Virus record (IMG/VR): IMGVR_UViG_3300025601_000079
Location: 1-30,443 of that record
DNA length: 30,443 nt
Origin: a virus
Reading direction: 5' to 3' (one strand)
The translations under genes were made by a program, and so were the position numbers. Below, piece by piece: positions 10,593 to 28,606 of this stretch. A model generated the notes under the pieces. That model was not told where the DNA came from, made no database searches, and worked only from the letters and a program-made list of their open reading frames with translations. Position 1 is the first letter of the stretch. Each line of letters starts with the position of its first letter.

Positions 10593-11660
10593 ATGCAAAG
10601 AATATCTGATATCCGAACAGTTCATATAGAACTAACCGATAAATGCCAAGCACAGTGCCCGATGTGTGCTAGGAATTATCACGGGGGTCCAACACGCTCT
10701 TTCATCCGTAACTCAGATATTAGTATAGAACAGTTCAAAGAGTGGTTCCCTAGGGAGTTCTTAGCACAGTTGAATAACTTTTACAGTTGTGGAAATTATG
10801 GAGACCCTGCTTTCGCAAGGGATTGTCTAGAGATATATGCATATGTCCGCGAATGTAATCCTAGAACTAAACTCGCTATCCATACCAATGGAGGTATGCG
10901 CAATCCAGATTGGTGGCGTAAGTTGGCAAAGTATAATGTTGAGGTTATATTTGCGGTAGACGGAGTTAAGGGTACTCACGAACTATATCGCAAGAACGTG
11001 AAATATGAAAAGGTTATAGAAAACTTAACTGCGTTTGTTAAAGCTGGAGGCAAGGCAAGAGTTGATAGTTTGGTATTTGCTCATAATGAAAATGATGTCG
11101 ACGAGTTGGAAAGGTACATACTTTCTCTAGGAGTAAAATCTGTGAACTTTGTTAGTACCACAAGGTTCTATGAAATGAAAGAGTATGAAGTACTCGATAA
11201 TAGTGGAAATGTCGAGTACACTATAAAACCTGCTCAGTCAGATAGGTTTAAACAGATTCCTAATAACTCTCTAGAACAATTACTTGATAAAGATTTTAGG
11301 GATGCTGTTATAGAGGAAGTCGATATATCGCCCAAGTGTATGAGCGAGAAGGGTATATATGTCGATCCTCATGGTGATATATTCCCATGTTGTTGGATCG
11401 GGGGTGATTACTTAGAAGAACCAATTTTAGAAACTCTGCCTATACACAAGTTGAGGAACCTAAGTGTACATAACACTAAAGAAGCGTTAAAAGTAATTGG
11501 TGTGGTTAACTGTCGAGATAAAGTGTTATGGGAAGATGATATTTTGTTTAAGCAATTGTCCGAATACTGGTATGGTGAGGATAAATGTATGACTTGCGCA
11601 AGACAATGTAGTACGATGATGTTTCAAGACAATAACAAGTATAAGAGAATTACCACTTAG
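10593..11660 (+). CDS. Radical SAM enzyme with SPASM/Twitch-type C-terminus
   Basis: A 355-residue radical SAM protein. The CxxxCxxC motif is C18, C22 and C25 (CQAQCPMC), which holds the [4Fe-4S] cluster that cleaves S-adenosylmethionine. The barrel follows (HTNGG, VDGVKG). The C-terminus has C249, C266, C267, C307 and a CMTCARQC block (C332, C335, C339), fitting a SPASM/Twitch domain with auxiliary clusters. Such proteins modify peptides, sugars or other substrates, and 'twitch' radical SAM proteins are known in marine T4-like phages. There is no clear ribosome site before the ATG. It lies 38 bases after the membrane-protein gene and overlaps the convergent GNAT gene by 11 bases. Substrate unknown. 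Confidence 0.87.
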   Translation: MQRISDIRTVHIELTDKCQAQCPMCARNYHGGPTRSFIRNSDISIEQFKEWFPREFLAQLNNFYSCGNYGDPAFARDCLEIYAYVRECNPRTKLAIHTNGGMRNPDWWRKLAKYNVEVIFAVDGVKGTHELYRKNVKYEKVIENLTAFVKAGGKARVDSLVFAHNENDVDELERYILSLGVKSVNFVSTTRFYEMKEYEVLDNSGNVEYTIKPAQSDRFKQIPNNSLEQLLDKDFRDAVIEEVDISPKCMSEKGIYVDPHGDIFPCCWIGGDYLEEPILETLPIHKLRNLSVHNTKEALKVIGVVNCRDKVLWEDDILFKQLSEYWYGEDKCMTCARQCSTMMFQDNNKYKRITT

Positions 11661-12210
11661 GATATTTTGATAGGTTTTCTAAGAACACTACTGGGTTTAA
11701 TTTCCATACAGTTTGTTCAGCGCCTCTATAATTTAGTTCTGTTACTCGTGTAAATTCTCCTTGTTGTTCTAGTAAAGGAAAGTATATGTTATGCACCTTC
11801 CGTTGACTTCCCCCATCTAATTGATTACTTGTAGCATACATATTCGAATCCATACCACACCATTCGATCATTTTAGGGATATAGAACTGACATGTCATAT
11901 TTTGATGTTGTATAATGTACCAACGACCTGTTCCTAGACCCTTTCCATTATTTAGAATCACTCCTTCTAACACACATGTCCTAGTAAGTATTCTATAAGC
12001 GTTAGGACCCATTTCAGGAAACGTGTGCGCTGCGACACTTCCAATTGCATTATTGTCTTTGTATAGTATCCATACTTGGGAGAGCTCTTCATTGTGAAAG
12101 CAATCGATCATGACTTTTTGACTAGAGTTATTAACGTGTCCTCTGAGTCTTGATTCTTCATAGAATTCTGTTAAGTCTAATTTTTCATTCCATTCAACTA
12201 GATCATACAT
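11650..12210 (-). CDS. GNAT-like acyltransferase (putative)
   Basis: A 186-residue protein with a GNAT-like strand order: VWILYKDNNAIGSVAAHTF (beta 2-4 region, where a side chain is usually recognised), a YRILTRTCVL strand, then NNGKGLGTGRW, which sits where the acetyl-CoA pyrophosphate loop is expected (usually Q/RxxGxG/A). The family assignment comes from this pattern and is moderate. Its ATG overlaps the kinase-like gene's stop by 8 bases, so the two are co-translated. It converges on the radical SAM gene with overlapping 3' ends. Confidence 0.58.
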   Translation of the reverse strand: MYDLVEWNEKLDLTEFYEESRLRGHVNNSSQKVMIDCFHNEELSQVWILYKDNNAIGSVAAHTFPEMGPNAYRILTRTCVLEGVILNNGKGLGTGRWYIIQHQNMTCQFYIPKMIEWCGMDSNMYATSNQLDGGSQRKVHNIYFPLLEQQGEFTRVTELNYRGAEQTVWKLNPVVFLENLSKYPKW

Positions 12211-12892
12211 ATATTCGTTTAGCCATTTCCATCACTTCTTCTTCAAAGTTGTTTTTAAAGCTGTCAAACGCAAGTAATTGTAAATCTTTATGCTCCACGG
12301 GTAAGTCGATATCGATACCCATAGCATCCATTTTAGGGAATAATTCTTTGCGCCTATCTTCGCTAATATGGCTTAGTACACTTCGCACAGTCATCTTAAC
12401 ATCTTCAGTATCATATGTAAAAAAATAATTCATACTCTTTAACTCACCGGAAACCACAAAATAACTTGAGGGGTGTAGACTATATTTTGTTAAACCTAGT
12501 TCTTTATGTGCCTGTATTATTTCCAGCATCTGGGTATCCCAGTCTACCACAGATTTAGAATATTCTCTACCTCTACATCCAGACATCTCCCACATATCGG
12601 GCCCATCAATGGTTAAATAGATTTTATGATTCTTTAGATCGATGTCGTATTCTGGTACAAGATGTTTGAAGTTATTTCCCATCAGAGTTAAGAACTTAAC
12701 TTCTCTATTGAACTTCTCTTCCATGAGTGTGGGATCTACAACTTGATTATGTCCGCCATGATACCCTTCATCATTGTAGTACCACTGACAGAATGTCTTA
12801 CTGTCCGTACTAATTAGGCTAGTATAAATAAGGTTGTTGCGACACAATCCTTTTTCCGGGACGTTGTTGTAATAGTATTCATATTTTGTCAT
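12203..12892 (-). CDS. Kinase-like protein with degraded catalytic loop (APH-type fold, putative)
   Basis: A 229-residue protein that I read as an aminoglycoside-phosphotransferase/choline-kinase-like fold. FNREVKFLTLM resembles the alpha-C helix with its glutamate, and IYLTIDGPDMWE resembles the hinge. SLHPSSYFVVSGELKSMNY lines up with the family's catalytic loop HGDLHPxNILV...DFG, but the catalytic Asp reads Ser, the metal Asn reads Ser, and the DFG aspartate is not seen. If correct, it is a pseudokinase or has changed chemistry. A second related protein lies at 14774-15322. The ATG is 28 bases from a divergent dioxygenase-like gene. Function unknown. Confidence 0.5.
   Translation of the reverse strand: MTKYEYYYNNVPEKGLCRNNLIYTSLISTDSKTFCQWYYNDEGYHGGHNQVVDPTLMEEKFNREVKFLTLMGNNFKHLVPEYDIDLKNHKIYLTIDGPDMWEMSGCRGREYSKSVVDWDTQMLEIIQAHKELGLTKYSLHPSSYFVVSGELKSMNYFFTYDTEDVKMTVRSVLSHISEDRRKELFPKMDAMGIDIDLPVEHKDLQLLAFDSFKNNFEEEVMEMAKRIYV
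12833..12840 (+). promoter_or_regulatory. Possible late promoter for the divergent dioxygenase gene
   Basis: An exact TATAAATA on the plus strand, 80 bases before the ATG at 12920, inside the start of the divergent kinase-like gene. Position and direction fit, but one such octamer by chance in the window is not unlikely. Confidence 0.4.
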
Positions 12893-12919
12893 AAAAATAT
12901 ATATAAAGGTTATTATATT

Positions 12920-13735
12920 ATGATACGCGGCATTGGCAATAAACCATACATCAATTTAGATCCGTACTTAAACATAGATGGGTTTAAGCAATTGCATCCA
13001 GAAATATCTAAGGGGTTCGCACTTGCACGAGATTATGCCAAAGAAGGTACTTGGATGTCTCCTGGATTTGAATGGAAAGATTCTAGTTATATCATGAACT
13101 GGAAACCTATATATCAAGCATGGGATGAATATCAAAAACTTCCTGCAGATCATCCTATTAAAGTTACTGGTGATACAATAATACCTAAGAACTTCGGTGA
13201 TTATAAGCAACGCAATATATTCACACGATATCTTAAATCTACTCTAGGAGCAAATGACCCATACATTTATTATTTTATTTGGAATGAGGGTGACTGGAAT
13301 GATCGAAATGCGCAAAGACAACTCACCGAGGAGTCGACATACTTTCAAGGAGTTGTTGATTGGGTTATCAACCTACAAAACACTAATATCATTGATCGGA
13401 TCGGCAGGGTTATATTTTTCCATTGTGATCACAATGGCCGAGCGTTTGAACATCGAGATTTAGATGCAAATAATGGTGTACATGATGATAAACAATATAG
13501 CCCGCATAACAATGAATTCATTCATATAAGATATAGAACTAAACGGGGATTTTATATTTGGGATCCTGAAAGTGAAAATAAATATTATCTAAATTGTAAT
13601 GCAGGTTTCTGGAATGATCAAGATTGGCATGGCGGAGAAATTAGTAATGAAGTAGAATATGGGTTACGCATAGATTGTAAATTCACGCCAGAATTTAGAA
13701 AGATTATAGGAGTAGATCACCTAGACCATTACTAA
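12920..13735 (+). CDS. 2OG-Fe(II) dioxygenase-like protein
   Basis: A 271-residue protein with the signature of a double-stranded beta-helix iron dioxygenase in its second half. H178 and D180 (EHRDLD) form an HxD pair, H237 (DWHGG) is the distal histidine, and R250 (YGLRID) is placed to bind 2-oxoglutarate. The strand FIHIRYRTKRGFYIW lies between them. Such enzymes hydroxylate or desaturate peptides, nucleic acids or small molecules. The substrate is unknown. It is divergent from a kinase-like gene, and its end overlaps the convergent Rossmann-fold gene by 32 bases. No clear ribosome site is seen before the ATG. Confidence 0.62.
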   Translation: MIRGIGNKPYINLDPYLNIDGFKQLHPEISKGFALARDYAKEGTWMSPGFEWKDSSYIMNWKPIYQAWDEYQKLPADHPIKVTGDTIIPKNFGDYKQRNIFTRYLKSTLGANDPYIYYFIWNEGDWNDRNAQRQLTEESTYFQGVVDWVINLQNTNIIDRIGRVIFFHCDHNGRAFEHRDLDANNGVHDDKQYSPHNNEFIHIRYRTKRGFYIWDPESENKYYLNCNAGFWNDQDWHGGEISNEVEYGLRIDCKFTPEFRKIIGVDHLDHY

Positions 13736-14216
13736 TTTCTATAGTGGTTGGTAGTATCGACTTACCACTTATAACATTGTCTATCGCATAGATAATTTGT
13801 TCTGATGTTACGCTAGGTATTCCATTGGCGGTGTTACCGTATTTAGAAATGTTAATAAGCGCACTATTTACTATGTTATTATGTACATGGTTTAGGAATA
13901 ACTTTTCAGAGAAATATTCTGGTTTGCATAATAATTTCATACGACTCCATTTAAAATTTGTGACTAAACTACCGAAACTTATATTGATCTTCGCCTTGCT
14001 CTGTTCTAATAATATCCCTTGAGTATATCCAACATGCGCAACATTTAAAAATACATCAGCATCAGCGGTCATATCGACCAGTTTTAAAAATTCTTCTGAG
14101 TTAGTTATGTCCCATCCATATTTCCTACTCACGCATGTTATATTATGCATAGTTGAATAGTGATCTTTTAATATTCTCCCTACAGGGCTTGATGCTCCAA
14201 ACAATATAATATTCAT
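13704..14216 (-). CDS. NAD(P)-binding Rossmann-fold (SDR-like) protein
   Basis: A 170-residue protein that opens with a beta strand and dinucleotide-binding loop, MNIILFGASSPVGR, as in short-chain dehydrogenase/epimerase-like proteins. A second segment, VSRKYGWDITNSEEF, fits the usual cofactor-specificity strand and the D-(I/V) contact. No Y-x-x-x-K catalytic pair is evident (there is KYGNTANG but no clear partner), and at 170 residues it is short for a full SDR. It may be a reductase-like or cofactor-binding subunit. It lies 4 bases after the dioxygenase gene in a three-gene late operon. Confidence 0.6.
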   Translation of the reverse strand: MNIILFGASSPVGRILKDHYSTMHNITCVSRKYGWDITNSEEFLKLVDMTADADVFLNVAHVGYTQGILLEQSKAKINISFGSLVTNFKWSRMKLLCKPEYFSEKLFLNHVHNNIVNSALINISKYGNTANGIPSVTSEQIIYAIDNVISGKSILPTTIEISNGLGDLLL

Positions 14217-14220
14217 AATA

Positions 14221-14772
14221 CTATCCCCAAATATTGAATAGATACTTTGGAGTTAGACCAGCATTAGCACCAGAATGCCATGACATTCGACTACTCCATT
14301 TATATACATTACCTTGATCTTCGTTATAGAAACACTTATCTTCGACAGATAAGAAGTGTCCAGGCCTTGGAATATCGATGTGGCAATGGTATCGATGAAT
14401 TTCTTTTACAGTTGAATTAAGAGTAAACTCATCATCGGTGATATCCCAGTGCCAAGGTGCTACATCTCCAGGCATAACTCTGCTGACCCAACAATTAATA
14501 TAAGAATCCATTCCTACAAAGTCTATGAAAGATTTTACAACACTTATATCGAAATGTTGTTTTGGAAAATACATTCCCCAACTAGCACTCCCACCTTCAC
14601 ACTTCATCTTGTATCCAGCATTTCGTATTGGAACACATACTTCGTCAACGCCTTGAACTGTATGTCCCGCGTCGTGCCTAGGACCAATATATCCAGGTTC
14701 ACTATCGCGTATATCATCTATTACACCATCCCAATCTATTAGATGATTACAGTTACCAATGAATTGAACCAT
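14221..14772 (-). CDS. 2OG-Fe(II)/Asp-hydroxylase-like dioxygenase
   Basis: A 183-residue protein. PGDVAPWHWDITDDEF gives H108 and D110 as an HxD iron pair. RMSWHSGANAG gives H166 as the distal histidine, and K176 (PKYLFNIW) is placed for 2-oxoglutarate. The layout resembles aspartyl/asparaginyl hydroxylases and related phage dioxygenases. I chose ATG 14772, one base after the upstream stop and behind GGAA; the longer frame from 14811 would overlap that gene by 38 bases. It sits between a kinase-like gene and an SDR-like gene in one operon. The substrate cannot be inferred from sequence alone. Confidence 0.66.
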   Translation of the reverse strand: MVQFIGNCNHLIDWDGVIDDIRDSEPGYIGPRHDAGHTVQGVDEVCVPIRNAGYKMKCEGGSASWGMYFPKQHFDISVVKSFIDFVGMDSYINCWVSRVMPGDVAPWHWDITDDEFTLNSTVKEIHRYHCHIDIPRPGHFLSVEDKCFYNEDQGNVYKWSSRMSWHSGANAGLTPKYLFNIWG

Positions 14773-14773
14773 A

Positions 14774-15322
14774 CTATGAATTCCATAACCACTCTTGAAC
14801 GATATTTTCAATGGTGTATTTGTATGTCTGCGCTATGTCTAATATACCATCATTAAATTCGAATCTATCCTTGTTATTAATAATATGCGATATATCAGAT
14901 TCTAATATTTTTTGGTCTGCTGATATACATGCATACAGATCCATCACAAACACTTTAGAATCCTTAACATAGAATGTATGTGGGTATAGGTTTAGTTTAT
15001 ATAAATCACTTTTCTCTAGGTCTGAGAGTATACTCTTAACTTGATCTTGCCAGTCGTCGGGCAACCCTTGCTTAAAGTGTATTAAGTGATTAAGGTTTGT
15101 TGCACTTTCCCACTTGAACACGATTTCCATTTTTTCATTATCACTAGATACTATCTCTGGACAATATGGTTTGTTGGATATCAACTCCAATCCAGCAATT
15201 TCTGAGTCATACCAATACTTCTCATTAAACTTCATCACGAAGATTTCTTGATTGTAGTGACCATTATATACTACGCTGGGTACGCTTAGATATGCTCCCT
15301 CATATTTTCTGAATAATTCCAT
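14774..15322 (-). CDS. Kinase-like protein, paralogue-like partner of 12203-12892
   Basis: A 182-residue protein. KLNLYPHTFYVKDSKVFVMD lines up with the HGDLHPxNILV...DFG core of APH-type kinases. The catalytic Asp reads Asn and the metal Asn reads Thr, but an Asp remains at the DFG position (VMDLY). EIVFKWESATNLNHLI may be the hinge region, and the N-lobe is short. The pattern echoes the protein at 12203-12892, so these may be diverged relatives. It is first in a three-gene operon behind an exact TATAAATA box. Function unknown; activity is doubtful from the substitutions. Confidence 0.5.
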   Translation of the reverse strand: MELFRKYEGAYLSVPSVVYNGHYNQEIFVMKFNEKYWYDSEIAGLELISNKPYCPEIVSSDNEKMEIVFKWESATNLNHLIHFKQGLPDDWQDQVKSILSDLEKSDLYKLNLYPHTFYVKDSKVFVMDLYACISADQKILESDISHIINNKDRFEFNDGILDIAQTYKYTIENIVQEWLWNS

Positions 15323-15354: not shown

Positions 15355-15362
15355 TATTTATA
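15355..15362 (-). promoter_or_regulatory. T4-type late promoter for the 15322-13704 operon
   Basis: The minus strand reads TATAAATA exactly, 33 bases before the ATG at 15322. This places the kinase-like/dioxygenase/Rossmann operon among late genes. The small plus-strand frame at 15379 diverges from it. Confidence 0.78.
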
Positions 15363-15378
15363 ATATATATACATTATC

Positions 15379-15513
15379 ATGTATCCAAACTATCAAGAAC
15401 ATCTTAAAATGATAAAAGAACTTACTGAGCGTATTTCTCAAATTCACATCTTGATTGAAAACAGCAAACCAAAAGTTGTTAGTAAAATACCATCTTGGAT
15501 GAGAAAACCTTAA
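15379..15513 (+). CDS. Small hypothetical protein (44 residues)
   Basis: A short frame beginning MYPNYQEHLKMIKEL and ending VVSKIPSWMRKP. The middle (KMIKELTERISQIHILIEN) would form an amphipathic helix, possibly a coiled coil, with a basic tail. The start codon has no clear ribosome site, only an AT-rich run, so translation is uncertain. Composition and the helix suggest a real small early protein. No family recognised. Confidence 0.45.
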   Translation: MYPNYQEHLKMIKELTERISQIHILIENSKPKVVSKIPSWMRKP

Positions 15514-15637
15514 ATACTAAATAAAACAAACACACTGCCTTAGGACCGTTAGCTTACGAGCATGTGTAGGGTGGGTACTACCCAGACGATAGATCGCCAT
15601 TCAATCGTTGAAGTGCCACTTATTATAAGGGAACTGT
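15514..15637 (+). other. Non-coding gap with possible structured leader
   Basis: A 124-base gap before the 15638 gene with no open frame. Pairings seen: ACACA (15530-15534) with TGTGT (15563-15567), TGGGT (15572-15576) with ACCCA (15580-15584) around a 3-base loop, and ACGAT (15586-15590) with ATCGT (15604-15608). A ribosome site AAGGG follows. It matches no riboswitch or tRNA that I know. Confidence 0.3.
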
Positions 15638-16175: not shown

Positions 16176-16640
16176 ATGAAACTATCTAAAAACTTCAGCA
16201 TGGCTGAATTTACTAAATCTCAAACCGCCGAACGCAAGGGTATTGATAATACTCCACAGGGTGAGCACCTAGACGCTGCAAAGGCACTATTTGAAAATGT
16301 TGTACAAAAAGTACGCGACCAGTTTGGTGTCACCACTATTAATAGTGGATATCGTAGTCCAGAACTTAATGCCGCGGTTGGTGGTTCTGCTACATCTCAG
16401 CATTGTAATGGTGAAGCCGCTGATATTGAAGTTCCTGGCGTGGCCAACGGTGATATTGCTACCTGGATTGTAGAGAACACCGACTTTGACCAAGTCATCC
16501 TTGAGTTCTATACTCCAGGTATTCCAGACTCAGGTTGGGTCCATGTGTCATACAAAGCAGACGGAAGCAATCGTGGTAAAGCACTGACTGCATCTCGCGT
16601 AAATGGTAAGACGGTTTATTCGGTAGGCATCAACGTATAA
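16176..16640 (+). CDS. M15-family peptidase (putative endolysin-type D,D-carboxypeptidase)
   Basis: A 154-residue zinc peptidase of the Peptidase_M15_3 type that cleaves peptide cross-links in peptidoglycan. SGYRSPELN precedes the zinc ligands H76 and D83 (SQHCNGEAADIE), and the third ligand is H123 in WVHVSY. There is no signal peptide, as expected if a holin or another route releases it, or if it acts from within the virion. The ribosome site is very strong (AAGGAGATAAT). A second, unrelated wall hydrolase lies at 27965. It may be the phage's lysin; that is inference. Confidence 0.88.
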   Translation: MKLSKNFSMAEFTKSQTAERKGIDNTPQGEHLDAAKALFENVVQKVRDQFGVTTINSGYRSPELNAAVGGSATSQHCNGEAADIEVPGVANGDIATWIVENTDFDQVILEFYTPGIPDSGWVHVSYKADGSNRGKALTASRVNGKTVYSVGINV

Positions 16641-17076: not shown

Positions 17077-18489
17077 ATGATATTAGGAATTAGTGAAGGG
17101 TTTCATGATGCAGCAATTGCAATCATAGACCCTAATAATGGTGATATTGTTCATGCATCTCACTCTGAGCGATCATCTGGGGTGAAACACGATAGGTATA
17201 TTAGCCCTTGGCAAATTGAACTACTAGATTCTTATGAAATTAGTAAAAGTGCTTATTACGAAAATCCCATACTGAAGAAGTCGCGTCAAATATATGCTGG
17301 TCAATATAAAACTGCATTCACTAAACGCAGACAGACAATAACTGCGGAAGTTAACCATTCACATCACCTCTCTCATGCCGCTGCTGCATTTCAAACTTCA
17401 GATTATTTAGAAGCTTCTTGTGTGGTGGTCGATAGTATTGGTGAATGGGACACGGTTTCAATATGGTCTGCGTACTACGACAATTGTAGAATCGCAAAAT
17501 ATAAAAAAATATACTCTCAGAAATACCCCAATAGCATAGGACTATGGTATTCTGCCCTTACTAAACATGTCGGACTCAAACCATTAGAAGAAGAATATAT
17601 CTTCATGGGTATGGCAGCGTTCGGTAAACACGATCCAGAACTTGAAAAGTTATTAGAAAATTTAAAGAGTTCTAATCTACACCGCGGCATAGGCACTTAT
17701 ACCAGTCAGTTATCTAACTATCCTAACGTCGATATATCTACAACTGCCCAAGTTGTATTAGAAAATTCATTGCGTAAAATATTCTCTATCGCTAAGTCAC
17801 ATAGTAATAATATTTGTTATGCTGGTGGTGTTGCATTAAATTGCGTTGCTAATTCGAAGTTGATTAAAGAATATGGTGATATATGGATTATGCCAAACCC
17901 TGGAGATGCAGGATCAGCATTAGGTGCTGCTGCATTAAGTTATAAAAAGAAACTTAACTGGAATGGTCCATATCTTGGAAGAGAAATCAATAGGAAAGTT
18001 CAAATTGATGAATTGACTGAATATTTAATTACAAATAAAATATGTGGTATTGCTAATGGAAAGTCTGAATTCGGACCTAGAGCATTGGGTAATAGAAGCC
18101 TAATTGCAGACCCAAGGGGAATTGATATAAAGAATTTGGTTAATAATATTAAAAAACGACAATTGTTTAGACCATTTGCTCCTTCTATATTGGCTGAACA
18201 CGCTGAACAATATTTCCGTGGGAGTATGTCAAGATATATGTCAACAACTGCAGAATGTAAATTCTCAGAACAGTTTCCAGCAATAATACATGCAGATAAT
18301 ACCAGTAGAGTACAACTTGTATATAAAGATGATAATACAATATTACGGAAAGTATTAGAATCATGGTATATTAAGACTGGATGTCCAATGTTACTCAATA
18401 CTTCATTGAATATACGAGGGATGCCTATGGTAGATTCTTGGCAAGATGCCATGCAATTTGAAAAATTATATGATGTAAAAATATTCTAA
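17077..18489 (+). CDS. Carbamoyltransferase (NodU/CmcH family)
   Basis: A 470-residue O-carbamoyltransferase that would move a carbamoyl group from carbamoyl phosphate to a hydroxyl. The N-terminal ASKHA-like domain starts ILGISEGFHDAAIAI and has the metal/substrate histidines in NHSHHLSHAAAAF. The C-terminal domain has the hallmark FGPRALGNRSLIADPR, RPFAPSILAE and LNTSLNIRG. At 470 residues it is shorter than the usual 550-600, with shortened linkers but all key motifs. Marine T4-like phages often carry one; the acceptor is unknown (surface sugar, nucleotide or DNA base). It lies 8 bases after the tiny basic gene with no clear ribosome site, and a terminator follows 20 bases later. Confidence 0.88.
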   Translation: MILGISEGFHDAAIAIIDPNNGDIVHASHSERSSGVKHDRYISPWQIELLDSYEISKSAYYENPILKKSRQIYAGQYKTAFTKRRQTITAEVNHSHHLSHAAAAFQTSDYLEASCVVVDSIGEWDTVSIWSAYYDNCRIAKYKKIYSQKYPNSIGLWYSALTKHVGLKPLEEEYIFMGMAAFGKHDPELEKLLENLKSSNLHRGIGTYTSQLSNYPNVDISTTAQVVLENSLRKIFSIAKSHSNNICYAGGVALNCVANSKLIKEYGDIWIMPNPGDAGSALGAAALSYKKKLNWNGPYLGREINRKVQIDELTEYLITNKICGIANGKSEFGPRALGNRSLIADPRGIDIKNLVNNIKKRQLFRPFAPSILAEHAEQYFRGSMSRYMSTTAECKFSEQFPAIIHADNTSRVQLVYKDDNTILRKVLESWYIKTGCPMLLNTSLNIRGMPMVDSWQDAMQFEKLYDVKIF

Positions 18490-26820: not shown

Positions 26821-27972
26821 ATGGCAACATCAAGCAAAACTACAAAATCTAGATTCTCCGACCCAGACATGAAGTTCTTGGGAGCTGAACCTATGTTCGA
26901 TTCAACTCTTGGTGTTGACTATGAGGGTAGGAATATTGCGTTGCTCAAGGCTCTCAATTGGTACAACTATTTTGTATCTAAGAAAGACCTTATTCCCAAT
27001 ATACTATCCTACGCAAAGACAGAGTTAAAGTTACCTGCAACACAACTCAATCAGTTCAAGTTAGCGTGTCCAACATGGGCGAACTCAACCGCAGGCGCAT
27101 TGGTTAGGATGAGCGATAGTCGTGGATTCGTGCTTAATGATAAAGAGAAAACATTTATCAAAGACCATATCATGAGAGCGGTTGAGGAAGGTTCTAAGAT
27201 CAAGGAGGTCAAAACGTCAGAAGACAAACCTCGTGAAGTCATTACCCCTCAACAGCGTCTGCGTAATAAGGTTAACGTCACTATCATGGAAGACCTTCGC
27301 GTGTTGGAAGACGCATGGTTGGCGAGTCTAACTGAAAAGTTTGATGCATACGCCCTTATGAAGCAACACGACTTACCAGCAATGTCTGTTGGTATGGTTA
27401 CTCCTTGGGTTAATGACCGCATCCAGGAGATGCAAGACGCGATTGATAAATCTTGTCCACAGGCGGTGGAGGCATTCCGTCACTTGGATAAGAAAGAATT
27501 AGTTGCGCGTGTAAAATTGCTAAATAAAGTACTAGATGATTTAAAACGTCATCAAGCGAACTCTAAAACAGTACGGAAGGTCCGTACAAAGAAACCAGTC
27601 GCGGCAACGAAACTAGTCGCTAAGATAAAATTCCTAAAGGAATCACCAGAGTTCAAACTCGTGTCGATCAATCCTGCTACAGTAGTAGGGGCGGCGCGTC
27701 TGTTTGTATTTAATGTGAAAACGAGGACATTGTCTGAGTACATAAGTTCGGGTCCCGATGGTCTGAGCGTTAAGGGTACAAGTCTACAAAATTGGGATAG
27801 TGCTATATCCAAGTCTACGCGTCTGCGTAAACCGGAGGAGTTCTTACCCCTAGTCCTTTCTAAGACACCGAAACAAATCGGTAACGCTTGGTCCAAATTA
27901 ACTACAAAAGATGCCTCTCCAAATGGTCGACTTAACGACGACACCATTTTGATGAGGATAACTAATGGTTAA
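26821..27972 (+). CDS. Conserved marine T4-like phage protein of unknown function (383 residues)
   Basis: A large soluble protein. The N-terminal part is helical (LLKALNWYNYFVSKKDL), the middle has VNVTIMEDLRVLEDAWLASL, then a lysine-rich linker (VRKVRTKKPVAATKLVAKIK). The C-terminal part is well structured (LVSINPATVVGAARLFVFNV, KTRTLSEYI, GLSVKGTSLQNWD) and ends NDDTILMRITN. I recall the same overall design in cyanophage genomes as an unnamed core-type protein. It starts the operon that continues through the hydrolase, gp33 and gp59. The ribosome site is AAAGGTAC. Confidence 0.75.
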   Translation: MATSSKTTKSRFSDPDMKFLGAEPMFDSTLGVDYEGRNIALLKALNWYNYFVSKKDLIPNILSYAKTELKLPATQLNQFKLACPTWANSTAGALVRMSDSRGFVLNDKEKTFIKDHIMRAVEEGSKIKEVKTSEDKPREVITPQQRLRNKVNVTIMEDLRVLEDAWLASLTEKFDAYALMKQHDLPAMSVGMVTPWVNDRIQEMQDAIDKSCPQAVEAFRHLDKKELVARVKLLNKVLDDLKRHQANSKTVRKVRTKKPVAATKLVAKIKFLKESPEFKLVSINPATVVGAARLFVFNVKTRTLSEYISSGPDGLSVKGTSLQNWDSAISKSTRLRKPEEFLPLVLSKTPKQIGNAWSKLTTKDASPNGRLNDDTILMRITNG

Positions 27973-28606
27973 AAAACAAATAATCGGTTCAATCGCTTCT
28001 ATCGCTCTTGCGCTAATATCAGTAACATCTCTGGTACTTACAATACCAAGTATGGTTAGTAGTAACCAAATTGAATATCGGATCACACTCCCAGAAGAAA
28101 CTTCTGAGCCAATTGTGGAGCGGTTGCAACTATCAACCGAACTCAAACCACTAACGAGACAAACTAAACTAAGCATCAAGGACTTAAACTGTCTTGCCAC
28201 TAATGTATACTTTGAGGCACTAAACGAAAGTTTTGCTGGGCAGATCTCTGTGGTGTTTGTTGTTATGAATAGGGTTGTAGATGATAGGTTTCCCAACTCA
28301 ATTTGTAAAGTAGTATATCAGGGAAGGCTTGGCACTGAACAACATGCAGATGATGCTCGCAAAGGTAAGTGTCAGTTCTCTTGGGCGTGTGATGGTAAAT
28401 CAGACACTATCAATGAGGAAACGGATAAGTGGAAACGAGTTATAGAGGTTGCCAAAACAGCGTTTCAGATGTATAATAAGGGGTTCGACATAACAGAAGG
28501 TTCCACACATTATCATGCGACATATGTCAATCCAAAGTGGCGCAATGATAGAAGCATGGAACGCACTGGTAAGATGGACACACATATTTTTTATAAATGG
28601 GGTTAA
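27965..28606 (+). CDS. SleB-like cell-wall hydrolase with membrane anchor
   Basis: A 213-residue protein with one N-terminal membrane or signal segment (residues of about 5-30) and a Hydrolase_2/SleB-type domain (about 71-213). NCLATNVYFEALNES carries the catalytic glutamate E84, and VVMNRVVDDRFPNSIC, CQFSWACDG and GSTHYHATYVNPKW follow as in SleB hydrolases, which cut peptidoglycan glycan strands. The anchor suggests action in the periplasm or as an anchored (SAR-like) enzyme. It overlaps the upstream gene by 8 bases and precedes gp33 by one base. A separate M15 peptidase is at 16176. Confidence 0.88.
   Translation: MVKKQIIGSIASIALALISVTSLVLTIPSMVSSNQIEYRITLPEETSEPIVERLQLSTELKPLTRQTKLSIKDLNCLATNVYFEALNESFAGQISVVFVVMNRVVDDRFPNSICKVVYQGRLGTEQHADDARKGKCQFSWACDGKSDTINEETDKWKRVIEVAKTAFQMYNKGFDITEGSTHYHATYVNPKWRNDRSMERTGKMDTHIFYKWG

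Follow-up and report, generated by a model that had tools for sequence, protein, structure and literature searches.

The 30,443-base window analysed here corresponds to one virus record (IMG/VR IMGVR_UViG_3300025601_000079), and carries a compact island of seven genes in which two kinase-fold genes (kinA and kinB) each lie beside a gene for a 2-oxoglutarate (2OG)-Fe(II) oxygenase (oxA and oxB). The first gene encodes a radical S-adenosylmethionine (SAM) enzyme of the rSAMw family (10593..11660, + strand). It is followed by a GNAT-like (FeeM-like) gene, which is a weak assignment (11650..12210, -), kinA, with a protein-kinase fold that lacks the catalytic Asp (12203..12892, -), oxA (12920..13735, +), a short-chain dehydrogenase/reductase (SDR) gene of Rossmann type (13704..14216, -), oxB, which is AspH-like (14221..14772, -; with a possible extension to a TTG at 14811), and finally kinB (14774..15322, -). 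All of these open reading frames (ORFs) lie where the original prediction had placed them. The window also encodes a phage-type DNA ligase and a gp32-like ssDNA-binding protein (53% identity to Methylophilales phage Melnitz, ∼52% to cyanophages) which, taken together with motifs of the T4-type late promoter, identify it as a fragment of a T4-like aquatic myophage. Two long tail genes are found 4–12 kb from the island. Direct searches of Pfam, PHROG and NCBIfam return almost no matches for the core proteins of the island, and kinA and oxA fall into no Pfam or PHROG family, so that standard annotation is silent. Since the window proteins alone gave almost no Pfam/PHROG support, motif calls were tested through their relatives.

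The arrangement of kinase-like and oxygenase genes as two pairs, suggested originally from this one sequence, is borne out in essentially every relative, far beyond chance. The oxA and kinA family queries matched 379 and 401 IMG/VR contigs, respectively, and 80 loci were read per query; the contigs are partly redundant, so the counts do not represent independent events, and the gene order around the pairs does vary. At the oxA loci, kinA is present in 80 of 80, oxB in 78 and kinB in 66. At the kinA loci, 79 of 80 have oxA no more than 3 kb away, and the single locus without it is cut by a contig end. An independent kinB query found oxB beside kinB in 78 of 80 loci, a radical SAM gene in 77 and relatives of the window's own rSAMw in 59; scanning IMG/VR with the single kinB sequence gave no match, and these relatives were reached via the family alignment only. 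The gap between kinA and oxA is below 150 bp in 61 of 76 cases, the two genes nearly always diverging, often across 27 bp, exactly the spacing of the window, while kinB and oxB are on the same strand, abutting or overlapping, with a gap below 150 bp in 55 of 60. A kinA query in IMG/VR returned 16 close relatives, all with oxA (78–83% identity), with kinA and the GNAT-like gene together, and with relatives of oxB and kinB also nearby. Each of ten records searched whole has exactly one oxA and two kinases. Across the 80 loci oxA is the most conserved member (69–85% identity). One locus has, in addition to its main oxA, a divergent oxA-like sequence at a distance of 8.6 kb (L095:1367; 34% identity). 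Rather than never occurring together in other genomes, which would have spoken against the prediction, these genes co-travel in aquatic phages.

T4-like aquatic phages share a large, conserved gene cluster, of which the window island is the compact form. The clusters of relatives are far larger, with SPASM/twitch radical SAM genes (76 of 80 oxA loci), a QueC-like ATPase (65 of 80) and further AspH-like and prolyl 4-hydroxylase (P4H)-like oxygenases, and in several large relatives the island adjoins a fibre-like gene. The original description of the island was thus correct in its layout, but missed both these larger clusters and the loss of catalytic residues from the two kinases.

That both kinase-like proteins have the predicted fold is supported by profile, model and structure search. 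A profile of 78 kinA and kinB sequences matches only protein kinases in the PDB, including those of the Bud32 type (best E 4e-5). The AlphaFold2 model of kinA (pLDDT 93.6, pTM 0.90) shows the bilobal protein-kinase fold, with 867 Foldseek hits at E<1e-3 and a VIA Z of 12.7 (root-mean-square deviation 3.8, 186 aligned); for kinB, the fold is assigned by homology to kinA, and the comparison of the two profiles (probability 96.8%) marks them as paralogues. A profile of kinB alone gave no hits in the PDB. A DUF2661 hit to kinB (E 0.003) was rejected as chance, as it lies below the cut-off and occurs in only 1 of the 78 family members.

The residues that define an active protein kinase (HRD Asp, catalytic-loop Asn, DFG Asp and beta3 Lys) are not maintained as a set in either protein. 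With the register checked by profile alignment to TTK, and counting 42 kinA and 36 kinB sequences, the HRD position is never Asp; all 42 kinA have Ser there and the kinB sequences Thr, Asn, Ser or Ala, and the catalytic-loop Asn is replaced across both by Ser, or by Cys, Thr or Tyr. The DFG Asp has become Asn in 42 of 42 kinA and is retained in 34 of 36 kinB, and the beta3 Lys is Gln in 40 of 42 kinA and mixed (Met, Lys or Ala) in kinB. The alphaC Glu64 and Lys136, the latter at the position of the HRD His, are invariant in 78 of 78. In the window itself, kinA has S138 for the HRD Asp, S143 for the loop Asn, N155 for the DFG Asp and Q36 for the beta3 Lys, with Glu64 kept, and kinB has Asn for the HRD Asp and keeps the DFG Asp. 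Given that the canonical catalytic residues are replaced, kinA and kinB are best viewed as pseudokinases, or as kinases with changed chemistry, kept by selection. They share the fold, the profile match and the alphaC Glu with protein kinases and pseudokinases such as TTK, IRAK3/4, Rio1 and Bud32, but differ from them in the replaced HRD Asp and loop Asn (in kinA also the DFG Asp and beta3 Lys), in an identity below 15%, and in being found only in viruses.

Both 2OG-Fe(II)-like assignments also hold, that of oxA by fold and invariant residues, and that of oxB by residues and by family matches among its relatives. The model of oxA, with a pLDDT of only 81, has a double-stranded beta-helix fold, and 2OG oxygenases make up nearly all of its top-listed Foldseek/VIA matches (Z up to 9.7), with PHD2, AspH, proline hydroxylases and ALKBH5 at the top. 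H178, D180, H237 and R250, which supply the HxD...H triad and the 2OG-binding Arg, are invariant in 46 sequences. In oxB, H108-x-D110 and H166 are invariant among relatives, 13 of 64 of which match the aspartyl/asparaginyl beta-hydroxylase family (PF05118, best 6.5e-7); the window oxB itself has no Pfam hit. The larger islands contain an additional AspH-like oxygenase, C4, in which 22 of 32 members match PF05118. The relatives of oxB and C4 thus resemble PF05118 in the HxD...H motif and in their family matches, and oxB differs in being paired with a pseudokinase. The idea that one kinase/oxygenase unit had been duplicated was rejected. The kinases are paralogous, but the profiles of oxA and oxB have a probability of only 9% and no alignment, and the divergent kinA-oxA pair, with its gap of ∼27 bp, is unlike the abutting, same-strand kinB-oxB pair. 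It follows that the kinase was duplicated, and the oxygenases seem either to have been recruited separately or to have diverged too far to be recognised as related.

The remaining members of the island differ in how clearly they can be assigned. The radical SAM gene at its edge is confirmed by PF04055 (E 2.4e-13) and by the motif CQAQCPMC at residues 18–25, which conforms to CxxxCxxC and places the protein in the superfamily. It has a C-terminal Cys cluster of the SPASM/twitch type, yet no SPASM Pfam hit, and among NCBIfam models it comes closest to SPASM/twitch maturases, with every score under the cut-off. The twitch model NF033640 is among the NCBIfam matches of partner enzymes of the polypeptide type. 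The predicted Rossmann-fold protein is a short SDR: profile A10 matches SDRs (E 1e-7), it is 52–56% identical to the proteins of four related loci (L033, L038, L060 and L072), and it has both the Rossmann glycine motif and the S-Y-K triad, with G7, G13 and K105 invariant and S83 and Y101 nearly so. The GNAT-like gene is present in 64 of 80 loci of the oxA query and 68 of 80 of the kinA query. Its assignment is weakly supported, as among 32 relatives eight match FeeM and four Acetyltransf_1, all at E>0.04, and its profile had no hits in the PDB. The QueC-like ATP pyrophosphatase of the large islands matches PF06508 just over the cut-off; this gene (L002:11094-11774 and 64 oxA loci) has a four-Cys C-terminus and is conserved next to a SPASM radical SAM gene, with no obvious preQ0 pathway. 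Another conserved island protein, of 350–480 aa and without a Pfam match, is represented by families c12 and c33 (L076:13349-14443, L052:8044-9345 and relatives); G68, H108, Q110, S144, P154 and D267 are invariant in its alignment.

In the collections searched, the core pair occurs on viral contigs only. Two contig scans of 84,980 bacterial and archaeal genomes found no relatives of oxA or kinA, and a bacterial origin was therefore rejected. By tblastn, kinA, kinB, oxA and oxB have no match in 50,697 GenBank phage records, among them the marine T4-like Pelagibacter phage HTVC008M (KC465899), which has a run of 2OG-Fe(II)/phytanoyl dioxygenases at 57442-59681, beside tail and neck genes. HTVC008M genes were also tried as landmarks in the large relatives, and proved too distant for exact mapping of the island. 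The T4 major capsid protein is encoded in all five relative contigs of at least 145 kb. Radical SAM genes number 13–15 in the larger relatives and 7–15 in the shorter ones searched; in one set of aquatic T4-like relatives (G001, G003, G006-G009 and G015, e.g. L182, L185, L188 and L189), each has 12–15 such genes, with several radical SAM families in long tandem runs.

The gp32-like protein of the window is 26–29% identical to that of two of nine relatives (G006 and G009) and undetectable in the others, and oxA is ∼76% identical in these two despite the distant gp32. The phages closest to the window in gp32 (Methylophilales phages and cyanophages) are without oxA by tblastn. Closely similar oxA genes on distant gp32 backbones, and the lack of oxA in the nearest ones, argue for horizontal transfer under strong constraint, and the module probably moves between phages in this way. 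Purifying selection maintains oxA, kinA and the GNAT-like gene (dN/dS 0.135, 0.17 and 0.20), the values being rough, as is that of ∼0.5 for kinB and C4, with most pairs near saturation. Tree-like co-inheritance of the genes was rejected, pairwise-distance correlations being weak (0.14–0.31) and only indicative in a set chosen by similarity to oxA. Members may be shuffled between clusters.

A T4-type late promoter motif, TATAAATA, is found ∼33 bp upstream of kinB (15355..15362, -). The motif is not over-represented in the window (four copies vs 3.4 expected by chance), but all four copies precede a same-strand start by at most 100 bp (p ∼2.5e-5). A second copy within kinA, ∼90 bp upstream of oxA (12823..12830, +), may be chance; as a conserved promoter of oxA it was rejected, since just 2 of 51 relatives have one there. 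Among the island genes of relatives, C4 (8 of 46) and a radical SAM family, rSAM10 (7 of 56), show enrichment of the motif upstream, against 0.004 expected per 120-bp window, and it is rarely upstream of oxA or kinB. The proposal that part of the island acts late thus survives in part: the same-strand placement makes late expression of the kinB operon plausible, with the motif count at the level of chance, and the other island genes would presumably be late as well.

Outside the island, a Nol-like carbamoyltransferase gene (17077-18489, +) was considered as a member of the module and rejected, because relatives do not share it; its product is 56% identical to that of the single-cell marine virus AG-345-D19, and the cyanophage copies are otherwise distant. 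Two different endolysin-type genes are present in this one 30-kb fragment (16176-16640 and 27965-28606; an M15 peptidase and a lysozyme-like family). A possible structured RNA at 15514-15637 was rejected (no Rfam hit, z -0.9).

We tentatively regard the island as a virus-specific tailoring module of T4-like aquatic phages, an interpretation drawn from sequence and predicted structure that is a real possibility while falling short of probable. Oxygenases guided by pseudokinases would act with the radical SAM enzyme, the SDR and the GNAT-like protein to modify a late target. Bound to the substrate, or to a nucleotide or cofactor, the kinase-fold proteins would hold, gate or guide the oxygenases paired with them, so that hydroxylation takes place late in infection at a defined residue or position, which the radical SAM enzymes, the SDR and the GNAT-like protein would then modify further. 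The strict linkage of partners points to joint action of each kinase-fold protein with its own oxygenase. Having lost the catalytic residues, the kinase-fold protein would most simply bind substrate or a nucleotide and so guide or gate the hydroxylation. AspH-like oxygenases and radical SAM enzymes of the SPASM/twitch type work mostly on polypeptides, which favours a protein or peptide, such as a tail fibre or some other late protein, over a free metabolite as the substrate. The SPASM/twitch radical SAM clusters for ribosomally synthesized and post-translationally modified peptides (RiPPs) likewise combine maturase-like radical SAM enzymes with neighbouring oxygenases and further tailoring enzymes, but the island differs from these in its pseudokinase core, its T4-like phage setting and the lack of a conserved precursor peptide.

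This last point is one of several that weigh against such a module. No small ORF is conserved across the islands, which do not qualify as RiPP clusters, and a 44-aa ORF (15379-15513, +) and other small ORFs were rejected as precursors for this reason; the 44-aa ORF is divergent from kinB, with the upstream region in common. Furthermore, a physical interaction between kinase-fold protein and oxygenase is something we infer from gene order only, and kinB, with its DFG Asp, could retain nucleotide chemistry. Finally, the larger islands include NDP-sugar epimerase genes, genes of the SDR24 GDP-mannose/epimerase family and amidinotransferase-like, AMP-ligase-like and glycosyltransferase-like genes, and the epimerase, glycosyltransferase-like and ligase genes would suit a glycan equally well. 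These genes also speak for an alternative in which the island would serve to make or decorate a glycan at the surface, or a small metabolite, e.g. to modify host lipopolysaccharide or the virion and block superinfection, the kinase-fold proteins, GNAT and SDR acting on sugars and the oxygenases on sugar or lipid. The 2OG oxygenases of HTVC008M, which sit in a hypervariable host-recognition region, fit this explanation. However, the sugar genes belong to the variable part of the clusters, outside the core set, the kinase profile matches protein kinases rather than sugar kinases, with the catalytic Asp gone, and the usual substrates of AspH-like oxygenases and twitch/SPASM radical SAM enzymes are polypeptides. 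On these grounds we consider it somewhat unlikely.

Less likely again is that the kinase folds are active with changed chemistry (AMPylation, glutamylation or other nucleotidyl transfer), with the oxygenases preparing or finishing the same site. SelO and SidJ are known examples of reprogrammed pseudokinases, and the invariant Glu64 and Lys136, together with the DFG Asp of most kinB, would agree with such activity, but the near-uniform replacement of the beta3 Lys and DFG Asp in kinA makes the usual metal-ATP binding unlikely. Modification of a nucleic acid (a hypermodified DNA base or tRNA), on the model of TET-like 2OG enzymes and of QueC/QueE in other phages, is very improbable: the QueC-like gene that, with the radical SAM genes, occurs in most large islands is missing from the window fragment, the oxygenases, being AspH-like or a family to themselves, are not of the TET/JBP type, and the promoter is a late one, not indicative of replication-linked expression.

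Many radical SAM genes have been noted before in T4-like aquatic phages. The section on SAR86 phages in PMC5332604 describes TARA_ERS488813_N000010, a 183-kb T4-like environmental viral genome with 12 radical SAM genes, and radical SAM cassettes are reported in the host recognition cluster of pelagimyophages (PMC7029224); the relatives found here, with 7–15 each, are similar. In the passages of these papers that deal with them, the radical SAM genes are given as Fe-S genes or cassettes, and the kinase-fold/oxygenase core pair is not described there. No paper describing this pair was found in the open-access literature searched.

The genes of the core pair are very tightly linked in environmental viruses, occurring on hundreds of contigs and essentially never apart in the loci read. 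The genes ahbD, queC and P4HA are frequent among viral 'auxiliary metabolic genes' (PMC9301287), and the module may unite in a single pathway several puzzling genes that have been counted separately in aquatic viromes, namely those for ahbD-like SPASM enzymes, queC and P4H-like hydroxylases. It is conceivable, if doubtful, that the cluster is a virus-exclusive machine for protein modification, in which dead or reprogrammed kinase folds would be obligate partners of 2OG oxygenases, acting late, a combination not known in cellular life. With only seven genes, the version in the window is of a size that can be expressed and tested; if its kinase-fold proteins do guide hydroxylases, that would add a new role to those of the pseudokinase fold.

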